From positions 1 to 64,000 of the forward strand of contig JAFQQW010000061.1 of the NCBI GenBank assembly GCA_017410375.1: a DNA stretch of 64,000 nt, written 5' to 3'. A program made the position numbers and the translations under genes. The notes under the pieces are model-generated. The model had not been told where the DNA came from, searched no databases, and was given only the letters and a program-made list of their open reading frames with translations. Each line of letters begins with the position of its first letter. Within the stretch, counting starts at the first letter, position 1. The DNA comes from Clostridia bacterium. GTDB lineage: Bacteria; Bacillota; Clostridia; RGIG6154. This document shows positions 19,359 to 32,124 of this stretch, one piece after another.

Positions 19359-20771
19359 TTATTTCTGCAACTTATTGGACTTGGAGGTCTTCACAACAAT
19401 GCCCGCAAGTGCCACAAGGGCAATAACGTTAGGCAAAACCATCAACTGGTTAAACATATCCATCAAAGCCCAAACCAGATCATTTTTCATAACAGTACCT
19501 AAGAAGATACACAAAACGCTGATTACAGAGTACACAATAACTGCCTTTTTGCCGAACAGATACTGTGCATTCACTTTACCAAAGAGATTCCAGCTGAGGA
19601 TGGTAGAAAACGCAAAGAAGAACAGACAAACCGCTACAAAAATTGCACCGATTTTTGCACCAAGATTCCCTGCGAATACAACCTGGAATGCATTTTGTAC
19701 CATATTGGTATTTGCAAGACCGCCTTCTACGGCTACCTTTGCACCGTCAGCAGTAGACAGCACACCGTTGCCTGCATAAAGGGTGGTGATAACAATCAAC
19801 GCAGTCATGGTAAGTACCACAAAAGTATCAATAAACAAGCCTGTCATCGCTACAACACCCTGATCGTGGGGCTTTTCAACCTTTGCCAAAGCGTGCGCAT
19901 GCGGTGTAGAACCCATACCGGCTTCGTTGGAGAACAAGCCTCTCTTTGCACCCTGGCTGATTGCAGCTTTGAGTGCCGCACCAAACGCACCGCCAATGAT
20001 TGCCTGGGGCTGGAACGCATATTTGAAAATCATACCAACTGCTTCGGGCAGATACTGGATTCTTGCAATCACAATCGCCAGACCGCCAAGCAAGTAAATA
20101 ACCGCCATAATCGGTACCATTTTTTCGGTAACGGAAGCCAATCTGCTTACACCACCGATAAAAATAAATGCCGAGATACCTGCAACAACCAGACCCACTA
20201 CAAAGCTCGGAATTGCCGGTGCTGCGGTTGCCACAGAGCCTGCAATAGAATTAGACTGTACCATTACACCGATAAAGCCCAGTGCAATGATGGTTGCAAT
20301 CGCAAAGAAAACAGACAAAAACTTACCAAAGCCGTTCGGGAACGCCTTTTTCATGTAGTAAACAGGACCGCCCTGAATGTTGCCGTCTGCATCCACTTCA
20401 CGGGTTTCCTGTGCCAAAACAGCTTCGGCATAGATGGTTGCCATGCCCAAAAATGCAATAATCCACATCCAGAAAATCGCGCCGGGACCACCTGCTAAAA
20501 TTGCACCGCAGGCACCTACGATGTTACCGGTACCAACCTGTGCCGCAATTGCAGTAGCTAAAGCCTGGAACGAGCTTAAACCGCCCTCCTGCTTACCGCC
20601 TCTTAATGTAAATTTACCAAATACCTTCTTAAAGCCTTCACCAAAGCAACGCACCTGTACAAAGCGGGTTTTAATGGTAAAGAACAAGCCGACACCAACC
20701 AACAGCACAATCAGAATATAGTCTGAAAGATAGGTGTTGACGGTGTTTACAATTTCCAATAATTTGTCCAT
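19359..20771 (-). CDS. Alanine/glycine:cation symporter, AGCS family
   Basis: 470 aa, about 11 membrane segments, the usual length for the sodium:alanine/glycine symporter family (AgcS/AlsT/DagA-like). Family motifs are visible: GPGAIFWMW, QVGTGNIVGACGA in the first third and the conserved block around KRGLFSNEAGMGSTPHAHA. It probably imports alanine or glycine with Na+ or H+ across the cytoplasmic membrane. The start has AAGGAGG upstream. The leader carries a glycine riboswitch and a terminator hairpin, which makes glycine a likely substrate or signal. The plus-strand 267-aa frame inside it is an antisense shadow. Confidence 0.95.
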   Translation of the reverse strand: MDKLLEIVNTVNTYLSDYILIVLLVGVGLFFTIKTRFVQVRCFGEGFKKVFGKFTLRGGKQEGGLSSFQALATAIAAQVGTGNIVGACGAILAGGPGAIFWMWIIAFLGMATIYAEAVLAQETREVDADGNIQGGPVYYMKKAFPNGFGKFLSVFFAIATIIALGFIGVMVQSNSIAGSVATAAPAIPSFVVGLVVAGISAFIFIGGVSRLASVTEKMVPIMAVIYLLGGLAIVIARIQYLPEAVGMIFKYAFQPQAIIGGAFGAALKAAISQGAKRGLFSNEAGMGSTPHAHALAKVEKPHDQGVVAMTGLFIDTFVVLTMTALIVITTLYAGNGVLSTADGAKVAVEGGLANTNMVQNAFQVVFAGNLGAKIGAIFVAVCLFFFAFSTILSWNLFGKVNAQYLFGKKAVIVYSVISVLCIFLGTVMKNDLVWALMDMFNQLMVLPNVIALVALAGIVVKTSKSNKLQK

Positions 20772-20849: not shown

Positions 20850-20992
20850 AAAGTCTTGTGCTACCTCTATCCTTTTGCCTGAGAGATTCGGATTTTAAAA
20901 ATCCTTGCACCTTCGGCACTCAAGTAAGCTTGAGATTCTCCAGAGTTCCCTCCGCAGACGGTCCTTATCGTTCCGAAAGCATCAACGGGGAT
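20850..20992 (-). ncRNA. Glycine riboswitch
   Basis: The minus-strand leader contains the hallmark glycine aptamer sequences GGAGAATCTC, GCCGAAGGTGCAA and AATCTCTCAGGCAAAAGGA in the right order. It appears to be a single aptamer rather than the classic tandem pair. Downstream is a terminator hairpin (20799-20821), then the AGCS symporter gene. Glycine riboswitches upstream of sodium:alanine/glycine symporters are well known; in such cases glycine may turn expression off or on. The direction is not decided here. Confidence 0.9.
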
Positions 20993-26264: not shown

Positions 26265-26339
26265 TGCTACAACCCATTTGTCCTCTATATCGTTTATGCG
26301 ATGTATAATTGCAATAATCTCGCCTTCAAATTTTTCCAA
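26265..26339 (-). pseudogene. Fragment of an inorganic pyrophosphatase-like gene
   Basis: A 25-codon frame reading EKFEGEIIAIIHR...DKWVVA matches, from memory, the C-terminal half of the short Firmicute inorganic pyrophosphatase family (pattern FTGxVIAVIHRxDDVEDKWVVxP). The N-terminal half is missing: the hairpin-ladder array starts immediately upstream, at 26341. After KWVVA the frame runs into repeat DNA and loses similarity. The fragment is therefore truncated on both sides and not functional. The only start is a TTG without an RBS. Confidence 0.55.
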
Positions 26340-26340
26340 T

Positions 26341-26564
26341 AGCTAAATTTTGCAACAAGTTGCAAAGCTAAATTATCTCACTCCGTTCGATAGCTAAATT
26401 GTTTTTTCAAAACAGCTAAATTAAATTCTCTTTTAGCGTGCGAAGCACATTTAGCTGCCGCAGGCAATTTAGCTGAACTTGTTCAATTTAGCTCGCGTTA
26501 GCGAATTTAGCTGAATTCAACTTTGTTGAATTCATTATAAAATCAGTGAACGATTTAGATGCCA
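26341..26564. repeat. Hairpin-ladder array 1 (AGCTAAATT units)
   Basis: Four direct AGCTAAATT units (26341, 26366, 26392, 26414) are followed by four inverted copies (26448 with one change, 26466, 26485, 26504). Between them are short, mostly perfect hairpins with different sequences: TTGCAA-CAAG-TTGCAA, GTTTT-TTC-AAAAC, GCC-GCA-GGC, GAAC-TT-GTTC, CGC-GTTA-GCG. The second spacer (26375-26391) is degenerate. The centre has GTGC-GAA-GCAC (26438-26448). A longer last hairpin, GAATTCAAC-TTT-GTTGAATTC (26513-26533), precedes a ~31-bp tail (26534-26564) shared with array 2. Folded as a strand, the repeats pair into a stem with side hairpins. It is not coding and not a CRISPR. Confidence 0.9.
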
Positions 26565-26565
26565 C

Positions 26566-26789
26566 CAAATTTTAATGAATTGACAACATCCGTTGTCATG
26601 AATTGGCTAAAGCCATGAATTGTTGCTGTCGCAACATGAATTGAATTACCTTTAAATGCACGAAGTGCAATTCATGAGACGTTAGGCTCAATTCATGAAA
26701 TCTTTAGATTTCAATTCACGCCGTAAGGCAATTCATTGATTTCATCTTTGATGAAATCATTATAGAATCAGTGAACAATTTAGATGCCA
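26566..26789. repeat. Hairpin-ladder array 2 (ATGAATTG units)
   Basis: Same architecture and ~224-bp length as array 1 but with a different repeat. ATGAATTG occurs at 26575, 26598, 26615 and 26636, then CAATTCAT at 26668, 26689, 26712 (last base C) and 26729. Spacers are distinct hairpins such as GACAAC-ATCC-GTTGTC, GGCT-AA-AGCC, GTTGC-TGTC-GCAAC, GAAATC-TTTA-GATTTC and GCC-GTAA-GGC. The apex is TGCAC-GAA-GTGCA (26657-26669). The last hairpin is TGATTTCATC-TTT-GATGAAATCA (26737-26759). The tail at 26759-26789 matches array 1 at 29 of 31 positions. After it, 26790-26895 holds no gene. Confidence 0.9.
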
Positions 26790-29322: not shown

Positions 29323-30465
29323 TCACTCCATACATGGAGACCAATATGTATCCGTCTTCCAATTCGTTATTCTACAAAAATCAAATTGATCATAATTATC
29401 AATTTGGGATTTGGGAACATCAATAATTATTCTTTTATTCTCCAATCCATATAGTTTATGTTCTCTAAGAACAGGATACTTCACACTAATAAGAACATCA
29501 TTGTTATTTTCATCAGTAATAATAGCGCGTAAATCTTTGCATACAACAACACTTTTACTTGTATTTATAAATCTAAAAATACAATGTATGCTCTCTTCTA
29601 AATCTAATATATCCTCTACCTCAACCCTTTGTACATTGTTTTTTTGGCTTTTTGAAAGAGCTGAAACTGCATCCAAATACTCGTCTCGTATTCGTTCCCA
29701 AATATTATTATCCAACTCGTTTAATTCAAATTCCTCTATTATTTGATCTTTAAAATCATTTAAACGTTCTTTATCATTCATTTTAAACCATATTTTTGAT
29801 GGATCAATAGCCCCTTTTATATCCTGATATCCAAAATTAGGCAACAAGATTGCAGTATGTTGCTTTGCCTTTATCCAAGTTGCTCCCATTTCATTTAAAC
29901 ATGCAGGACTTTTATAATAATTATCCGACAAAAACATAATTACATGAGTGTCGTTTTCAATTTCTTTTTTTAAATATTCATATATAGATTGCCCATTCGG
30001 TATATAATATCCTGATACTGAACTACAAAATATTCCCCCTCTGCCAGCAAACCCTATTCGCTCTAATAGTTTAATAAAAGCATTAATATACTCAATATCT
30101 TTGGATGAATGGCTAATGAAAATCTTTTTTGTTTCGCAAGTACATATATCTGTTGATACCGGAACACAATTTGCATATTCGTCTAATAAAGCTTTTAAAT
30201 ATGACATCATACGATCATAAGCAGCTGTACCATAATCATTATTTCTACCATCAAATGTTTTTATAATTTCATCATATAATGGATGATTCTTTAGCTGATT
30301 CTCTGTGAGAATCTTGATTTTGTTCATCCACAGATTATACTTATCCCCAGCAATATAAGGCAATAAAAACAACCCATCTTCTTGCTTTACATCATGGTAT
30401 TCTTCGCACTTAACTCTTATCCCCTCTTCTATCAATGAATTAATCTTATTATACAATAAAAACAT
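29323..30465 (-). CDS. TIR-domain protein, candidate defence effector
   Basis: 380 aa from the ATG at 30465. This start is chosen because a consensus promoter (30488-30516) overlaps the longer upstream frame, and AGGATGGGAG lies just before the ATG. Residues 1-110 are helical and unassigned. Residues ~113-255 are a TIR domain: KKIFISHSSKD at 113-123, and the conserved acidic residue of NADase TIRs fits E182 in CLNEMGATW. The C-terminal part (~265-380) is beta-rich and unassigned. Bacterial TIR proteins of this type often deplete NAD or make signal nucleotides during phage infection. That this one does so is inference. It is first in a run of minus-strand island genes. Confidence 0.85.
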   Translation of the reverse strand: MFLLYNKINSLIEEGIRVKCEEYHDVKQEDGLFLLPYIAGDKYNLWMNKIKILTENQLKNHPLYDEIIKTFDGRNNDYGTAAYDRMMSYLKALLDEYANCVPVSTDICTCETKKIFISHSSKDIEYINAFIKLLERIGFAGRGGIFCSSVSGYYIPNGQSIYEYLKKEIENDTHVIMFLSDNYYKSPACLNEMGATWIKAKQHTAILLPNFGYQDIKGAIDPSKIWFKMNDKERLNDFKDQIIEEFELNELDNNIWERIRDEYLDAVSALSKSQKNNVQRVEVEDILDLEESIHCIFRFINTSKSVVVCKDLRAIITDENNNDVLISVKYPVLREHKLYGLENKRIIIDVPKSQIDNYDQFDFCRITNWKTDTYWSPCME

Positions 30466-30487
30466 CTCCCATCCTATTTCTTTATTT

Positions 30488-30516
30488 ATTATACCATAAT
30501 TCGCCAAATATTGCAA
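30488..30516 (-). promoter_or_regulatory. Promoter of the TIR gene run
   Basis: On the minus strand: TTGCAA (30511-30516), 17-bp spacer, TATAAT (30488-30493). It decides the TIR start at 30465. Confidence 0.75.
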
Positions 30517-30570
30517 TTGGCAATAGGGAGAAATATATAGGCTGAATTTTAGCATCCTGCAACATAGTGA

Positions 30571-32124
30571 TTAAATTGATTTTGTTATTTCGATTCCGTC
30601 TACATATTTGATTTTAATTTTATTCTGTGAAATTATCAGAACCGATTCAACCGTATTCCTTACAACTGCGTCAAAATATTCAAGCATATTCACTTCATTC
30701 TCATTTATAAAATCTTCAATGTCATTCATTTCACATTTGGTGCACTCAATAAGTTTTGAATTTAGTATTTCAAATTCATTCTCATACTCCTTAATTTTAT
30801 CAAGATACACTTGGTTATCATCTGCTTCATTCACAATTTGATTTAACACTCGAATTTCCTCTTCAAGTTTCTTGACTTTTGATTTTATTGTATATTCATT
30901 CTGCTCATCATTCTTATGAATTACAGTCCCGATTTCATTCTTAACCATTTCGGTTATATTTGAAACATCAAGGGATGCCTGAGATAAGCCTGACAGAATT
31001 GCTTGTTTTAATTTATCTTCAGGAAGTGACGGAGAATTCTTACAATTTTTGATTCCATTTTCAAGCCTCTCTGAGCATCTCCACACAATTCTCTTCTTAC
31101 CATTTCGTGCCCAAGTTACTCTCCTATACCTCGCACCACATTCTGCGCAAAATACAATTCCGGTTAAAGCATAATTAGCGGAAAATGAAATGGACTTGTC
31201 TCCTGTATAGTTTCTTCTTCGTTTTATTTCATCCTGAACCATATCAAAAATTTCTCTAGATACTATTCCCTCATGACTATTTTCAACATAGTACTGTGCA
31301 ACCTCACCTTTATTTCTTGCAACAGTTTTAGTTAGGTAATCAACCGTGTATGTCTTCTGTAACAACGCATCACCTTTATACTTTTCGTTCTTGAGAATTC
31401 CACTTACCGAATTTGAACTCCATCTCTTATTGCCTTTTGGAGATTCTATCTCATTTTCTTCAAGCCATTCGATTATGTCCTTTATAGAATTTCCCTCAAG
31501 ATACAAATAGAATATTTTACGAACTATTGCAGCTTCTTCCGGAACAATTTCAGGTTGTCCATTTTGTCCTCTTTTGTAAGCATACAATGAAAATGGAAAC
31601 GGAAATTTACCTTCCTTGTATCCCATTCTCTTTCCTCTTGTTATATTCATGCTAAGCGATTCACTTTCTGCCTGAGCAAAGGCACTGAACCAGGATAGAA
31701 AAATTTCACTTGATGGATCAAGAGTGTTTATTCTCTCTTTATCAAATCTGATTCCTATATTCTTTAATTTTAATTTCCTTATGTACCCCAAACAGTCAAG
31801 CTGATTCCGTGCAAATCTCGAAATTGATTTTGTTAGAATCAAATCAATTTTACCTTTTTCACACATTTCAATCATTCTCATGAATTCTGTTCTCTTCGTG
31901 TCATTTAAACCACTTACACCGAAATCGACAAAAACATCTACAAGAGTCCAGTTAGGATTCCTTTCAATTTCATTCTTATAATGCATTGTCTGAGTTTCAA
32001 GACTATTTTCCTGTTCTTCCTTTTCTGTGCTTACTCTGCAGTATGCTGCGACATTAAGTCTTGCTTTATCGTCTTTGATTTTAGGAAATATGGTGGCAGG
32101 TATTTCAATTACTTTCTTCATCAC
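30571..32124 (-). CDS. Large serine recombinase
   Basis: 517 aa. N-terminal resolvase domain (1-160) with the catalytic Ser at 32 in YCRVST and the motif SISRFARNQLD. A recombinase domain follows at about 180-290 (KIFYLYLEGNSIKDIIEWLEE), then a zinc ribbon around 330-380 (CAECGARYRR...WRC...NCKNSP) and a C-terminal coiled coil at ~400-480. It is full length for integrases of the large serine family, which insert or excise mobile elements at att sites. It overlaps the KilA-N gene by 20 bp, which indicates translation as a unit. No att site was identified. It is probably the remnant integration module of the island. Confidence 0.95.
   Translation of the reverse strand: MMKKVIEIPATIFPKIKDDKARLNVAAYCRVSTEKEEQENSLETQTMHYKNEIERNPNWTLVDVFVDFGVSGLNDTKRTEFMRMIEMCEKGKIDLILTKSISRFARNQLDCLGYIRKLKLKNIGIRFDKERINTLDPSSEIFLSWFSAFAQAESESLSMNITRGKRMGYKEGKFPFPFSLYAYKRGQNGQPEIVPEEAAIVRKIFYLYLEGNSIKDIIEWLEENEIESPKGNKRWSSNSVSGILKNEKYKGDALLQKTYTVDYLTKTVARNKGEVAQYYVENSHEGIVSREIFDMVQDEIKRRRNYTGDKSISFSANYALTGIVFCAECGARYRRVTWARNGKKRIVWRCSERLENGIKNCKNSPSLPEDKLKQAILSGLSQASLDVSNITEMVKNEIGTVIHKNDEQNEYTIKSKVKKLEEEIRVLNQIVNEADDNQVYLDKIKEYENEFEILNSKLIECTKCEMNDIEDFINENEVNMLEYFDAVVRNTVESVLIISQNKIKIKYVDGIEITKSI

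Follow-up and report, generated by a model that had tools for sequence, protein, structure and literature searches.

The two tandem arrays at 26341-26789 of the window (the whole 64,000-nt stretch of Clostridia DNA analysed here) are probably protein-less copies of small mobile units of Clostridia, whose four-helix-bundle (4HB) protein would recognise the unit's own repeats and thereby enable its spread. Each array is a ladder of four direct and four inverted short repeats with hairpins in the spacers, an arrangement proposed by the first-pass annotation and borne out by the repeat coordinates. In array 1, the direct repeats AGCTAAAT, as read from the sequence, start at 26341, 26366, 26392 and 26414, and their reverse complements at 26449, 26467, 26486 and 26505; this is ladder A (26341-26512, minus strand), defined by repeats and covariation. 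In array 2, the direct repeats (TGAATT of ATGAATT) start at 26576, 26599, 26616 and 26637, and the inverse copies at 26669, 26690, 26713 and 26730, the third of which reads CAATTCAC, with one mismatch; this is ladder B (26575-26736, minus strand), defined by repeats, relatives and covariation.

A strict ladder detector, demanding at least three copies of one 7-mer followed by at least three inverted copies, matched only these two arrays in the window and nothing when the whole window was dinucleotide-shuffled 50 times, while a looser rule of at least two plus two copies gave 0.24 matches per shuffle. Relative to shuffles, the minus-strand folding energy has a z of -4.2 for array 1 and -6.7 for array 2. 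The functional orientation of both arrays is the minus strand, on which the order is tail, palindrome, ladder B, tail, palindrome, ladder A and a 75-bp piece of a cargo gene. The tails (26534-26564 and 26759-26789, minus strand) agree at 29 of 31 positions, as the near-identical tail of ~31 bp first described. The longer hairpins reported with them also exist as 5' palindromes, TGAATTCAAC-AAA-GTTGAATTCA for ladder A (26512-26534, minus strand) and TGATTTCATC-AAA-GATGAAATCA for ladder B (26737-26759, minus strand), but tail and hairpin had been misplaced at the end of each array: the tail lies upstream of the ladder, with the hairpin between the two. The arrays had also been placed at the edge of a recombinase island. 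A large serine recombinase gene (30571-32124) does lie ~3.8 kb away, but no link between it and the arrays was found; it adjoins a gene for a TIR-domain protein (29323-30555, minus strand), a possible defence gene of the island. In a search of the window against Rfam 15, the arrays had no match above the gathering score, and the only match was a glycine riboswitch (20857-20953, minus strand) upstream of a gene for a 470-residue membrane protein (19359-20771).

Covariation of the hairpin arms, named beforehand as a refutation test, is clear in both ladder types. In an alignment of twelve A-type ladders, pairing holds in 97% of the cells of the drawn structure and 14 pairs have changed on both sides, a number reached in none of 500 shuffles; when the partners are slid by 1-3 columns, only 2-4 such pairs are left. 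Thirteen B-type ladders yield 8 double-change pairs, again with none of 500 shuffles reaching this. Among 223 distinct spacers of ATGAATT ladders, 85% are complete hairpins, compared with 12% after shuffling, and they include 85 different stems. The same architecture is moreover built from several different repeats, among them CGATATG, GCGATATA, GTGAAATA, ATGATGTT, GTGATATT and CTTCAC, in keeping with the original idea of a conserved shape with changing sequence. One particular ladder hairpin, GGAGC-GAA-GCGAGAA, keeps tandem G-A mismatches in 16 of 76 B-type ladders (including L003, L060, L072 and L117) and occurs in the A-type ladders L018 and L281 as well; it is possibly a protein-binding motif.

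Nucleotide search located further copies, whose absence had been the other refuting outcome named beforehand, in the same genome, in its relatives and in other Clostridia. The genome itself (G000, 69 contigs) holds at least ten AGCTAAATT (A-type) ladders and at least four ATGAATT ladders, all at unrelated sites: copies of array 1 lie on contigs C13, C59, C28 (two), C1, C65, C21, C16 and C19, and copies of array 2 on C58, C48 and C59, where the A-B tandem recurs with a different tail. Five of the six genomes covered for the bacterial family have ladder matches, and the relatives carry many more ladders. When public genomes were scanned for three ATGAATT copies spaced as for hairpins, at least 119 stretches were recovered, at least 75 of them with hairpin spacers, nearly all in Clostridia of animal guts. 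The A-type unit (~0.55-0.6 kb) is 82-89% identical across GTDB families over ~540-620 bp, from 5' palindrome to gene end, and its flanking DNA is unrelated between those hosts. Dispersal to unrelated sites and hosts supports the mobile or cassette-like nature that had been suggested, and window-type arrays have the MITE-like traits of terminal inverted repeats, absence of a gene and dispersed copies. No clear target-site duplication was seen in the flanks read, in genomes that are mostly metagenome bins with one per species. Apparently, the ladders form a large family of small mobile DNA units of gut bacteria that is undescribed in the open-access literature, where nothing fitting was found on hairpin repeats of Clostridia.

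Many units are located directly behind the terminator of a tRNA gene (L216, L217, L221, L303, L304 and L314, and L015-L017 in the same genome as the window), suggesting a target preference. L017 (G000:C16, ~1440-1900) contains two copies of the 3' end of a tRNA-Leu gene with its terminator. Behind each copy comes a ladder, the two ladders being of different repeat types, and a compensatory exchange of C-G for G-C distinguishes one terminator stem from the other. Some ATGAATT ladders are on contigs classified as viral (L192, L203, L210, L195 and L211), three of which have one common flank.

Several ladders directly adjoin an ORF assigned to the Pfam family 23S_rRNA_IVP (PF05635). This gene, absent from the first-pass annotation, encodes in complete units an Avd-like four-helix bundle of roughly 115 residues, with the ladder directly upstream of the gene or split around it. 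Among 62 distinct PF05635 genes of the close clade, taken from the family genomes and from a sample across the class, 22 are preceded by a strict ladder at no more than 400 nt, a number that rises to 31 once ladders split around the gene are included. The corresponding upstream figure is 0 of 35 in the distant PF05635 clade (one split) and 0 of 406 for strict ladders in background windows of the same loci. Many close-clade genes carry other or degenerate repeats, for example GTGATATT/GTGGTATT in L280, L290 and L224, and since the strict rule misses degenerate ladders, the true share of ladder-bearing genes is higher. Approached from the DNA side, among the 75 ladder loci listed, six of seven PF05635 genes lie within 600 bp of an array. 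A model of the 4HB protein (pLDDT 93) matches the S23-like pentamers 2RLD and 2GSC; with Avd alone (4DWL) and in the ribonucleoprotein of diversity-generating retroelements (DGRs; 8UBE, 8UB7) it gives TM-scores of 0.74-0.79, at E-values weaker than for the S23-like structures. We know of no catalytic site in this fold. The homology of PF05635 and Avd has already been noted in print (PMC10053308), and the open-access passages that name PF05635 describe no ladders beside it.

The repeat type follows the protein. In a tree of 28 ladder-bearing proteins, every repeat type corresponds to a single clade (support 100/98 for B-type, 97/97 for A-type and 99/98 for CGATAT), and mapping of the repeats onto the tree needs six changes, the minimum possible, which none of 200 shuffles equalled. 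The hosts of one repeat type nonetheless span different bacterial families. Together, the match and the dispersal are what a mobile unit carrying its own matched recognition sequence would show, although physical linkage could by itself keep a repeat paired with its protein.

The window copies lack the PF05635 gene found in gene-bearing relatives, and array 1 is a remnant of a complete unit. In complete units, the 4HB gene is often followed by a variable cargo gene, and the 75-bp piece at 26265-26339 (minus strand), likewise missed by the first-pass annotation, matches a central stretch of the pyrophosphatase-like cargo gene behind the 4HB gene of L273 at 98.7% identity; L273 belongs to another family's genome. 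The piece begins at 26339, directly beside the end of ladder A at 26341, so the 4HB gene and the start of the cargo have been lost. The only PF05635 gene of this genome, on C48 beside a B ladder, has an in-frame stop, which leaves its AGCTAAATT copies without a visible helper at present. The window arrays are therefore non-autonomous copies.

As we picture it, a complete unit would begin with a promoter and a palindrome located at the start of transcription, followed by the hairpin ladder, the 4HB gene and often a variable cargo gene. The rung repeats, judged from their co-inheritance with the protein, would be what the unit's own 4HB protein recognises; through them the protein may bind the folded single-stranded ladder (DNA, RNA or both) and so let the unit spread. 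Gene-less copies could be helped in trans, much as a transposase acts on MITEs, and host enzymes might conceivably complete the process; no nuclease or recombinase was found travelling with the units. The family, its covariation, its association with the protein, the match of repeat and clade, the dispersal and the remnant nature of array 1 are computed results.

A different role for the ladder is suggested by the DNA upstream of it. The 5' palindrome of A-type units is preceded by TTGNNN-17 nt-TAGAAT or TATAAT (seven cases), or by GCATCT-17-TATAAT or TAGAAT, and these promoter-like modules end exactly at the palindrome, from which transcription of the ladder is expected. Both window tails belong to the GCATCT-17-TATAAT kind, termed T1: in tail 1, GCATCT occupies 26562-26557 and TATAAT 26539-26534, and in tail 2 the palindrome of ladder B begins where TATAAT ends. 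It is conceivable, then, that the ladder is a structured RNA leader controlling 4HB expression, for example through a protein that binds its own messenger, with stand-alone ladders left behind after gene loss. Such a leader would be consistent with the promoters (TTGNNN-17-TAKAAT or GCATCT-17-TATAAT), with the folding of the 220 nt before the gene, whose median z is -4.0 for close-clade and -0.9 for distant-clade genes, and with the fact that Avd works in a ribonucleoprotein (PDB 8UBE). Base pairing and placement make it unlikely. Hairpins delimited by repeats contain 1436 Watson-Crick, 5 G-U and 2 A-C pairs, a count whose rule penalises mismatches, and the fairer G-U figure from A- and B-type structures fixed beforehand is ~1%, against 7.7% in 40 tRNAs from the same loci. 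This share is far below expectation for selection on RNA only, and the palindromes would thus be kept at the DNA level, which points to recognition of single-stranded DNA or to template-switch correction. Between the structured RNA and the single-strand DNA originally offered as alternatives, the near lack of G-U pairs accordingly argues for upkeep as DNA. Decay after gene loss, moreover, does not explain why copies without a gene are more numerous than those with one, or why they lie precisely between operon genes, as at L055 between genes that read as atpG and atpD.

The arrays could also be palindromic DNA that an unlinked transposase of the IS200/IS605 or RAYT type mobilises in single-stranded form. 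The 4HB gene would then be a passenger, and the perfect hairpins would be maintained either by the transposase or by template-switch correction at replication. The near-perfect Watson-Crick palindromes would suit this, as would mismatches without strand bias; G-U and A-C pairs are both nearly absent from the repeat-delimited hairpins, and their comparison names no strand. Yet matches to Y1 transposases of the RAYT/IS200 type are few in these genomes, those in G000 are fragments, and none has ladders alongside, whereas the 4HB gene is the recurring partner and the repeat type tracks its clade, which makes an unlinked transposase a distinctly improbable explanation.

The tails belong to a wider set of T modules, which exist in several sequence versions with GCATC in common. 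The T1 module also follows the cargo genes of the intact units L272, L273, L281 and L283, and T modules stand between single genes unrelated to one another (GrpB, GDSL hydrolase, phosphoesterase and others), all in the same orientation, in clusters of 5, 5, 3, 3, 3 and 2 sites. Such gene arrays occur at L317 (G000:C59), L320 (G004:C20), L319 (G004:C79) and L329 (G001:C89), where a T module (GCATCTAAACCTTATGTGTCGCAAT or a relative of it) stands before each gene and CTAACTTGACACGAACTT often closes the gene, a cassette layout like that of integrons but without an integron integrase. T1, T3 and T4 look like promoters, and the modules may be read as promoters travelling with each module; a promoter scan of the window passed over the T1 modules, as GCATCT does not resemble the TTGACA hexamer. 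The arrangement as single-gene cassettes that all point one way and have common boundary modules might invite the view that tail or ladder is an attC-like site for a tyrosine integrase, which is very improbable given that none of the six family genomes has an integron integrase above the curated TIGR02249 cut-off, that among the tyrosine recombinase regions checked only the one on C28 also has a ladder and none a T site, and that the sites, on reading, have no paired attC R box and resemble promoters, agreeing with the earlier judgement that the arrays are no obvious integron attC.

If the unit is indeed spread by its own 4HB protein, it is tempting to suggest, more tentatively and at somewhat less than even confidence, a new class of mobile element that has neither a reverse transcriptase nor a recognised transposase, in which an Avd/S23-type bundle would read its own rungs, the repeat code would change with the protein, and unit, cargo and protein-less copies would be mobilised together, the intervening sequence (IVS) of 23S rRNA being a branch of the same kind. 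To our knowledge, the function of the S23/IVP protein has been open ever since the IVS was discovered in 23S rRNA, and such a relationship would give it one. The repeat code, dozens of natural variants and the protein-less copies make binding and mobility directly testable. Gut and rumen Clostridia carry the family in abundance; since it lies within operons and brings cargo genes, it probably shapes their genomes.

Several known systems resemble the ladders in part. The arrays are not CRISPR, as had been recognised, for half of the repeats are inverted and the spacers are hairpins. MITEs and modular repeats such as BOX and bcr1 are, like the ladders, small, dispersed, intergenic, foldable and modular, whereas ladder units have no transposase ends and combine a ladder architecture of changing repeats with a linked 4HB gene. 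REP/REPIN-RAYT systems share short palindromes, intergenic positions, non-autonomous copies and a repeat matched to a helper protein, but no RAYT occurs at ladders, the ladder helper is a four-helix bundle, and each unit has many hairpins. The Avd protein of DGRs has the same fold (4DWL, 8UBE) and acts with structured RNA. Avd requires reverse transcriptase, in contrast to ladder units: G000 and the ladder-rich G004 and G005 have no match to RVT_1, and no variable repeat was seen. In a relative, a reverse transcriptase does lie beside a weak PF05635 match (G003:C21:17778-19139; L220, L377), probably a DGR. The 23S rRNA IVS has a PF05635 protein and ORF-bearing and ORF-less forms, and is suspected of spreading horizontally (PMC4990558). 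Ladder units likewise have a PF05635 protein and forms with and without the ORF, and complementary fold-back ends enclose the gene, as in the IVS, in L125 and L088 (repeats, gene, inverse repeats), although mostly the whole ladder is upstream. No 23S motifs were found beside ladder loci; they occurred only beside the distant-clade protein in G205, where equal-scoring copies of the IVP gene adjoin 23S rRNA on C1 (L245, L257-L259, L263) as true intervening sequences. Unlike the IVS, ladder units lie outside rRNA genes, build their stem from repeats and hairpins, belong to a separate protein clade, and occur in many copies per genome together with cargo genes.
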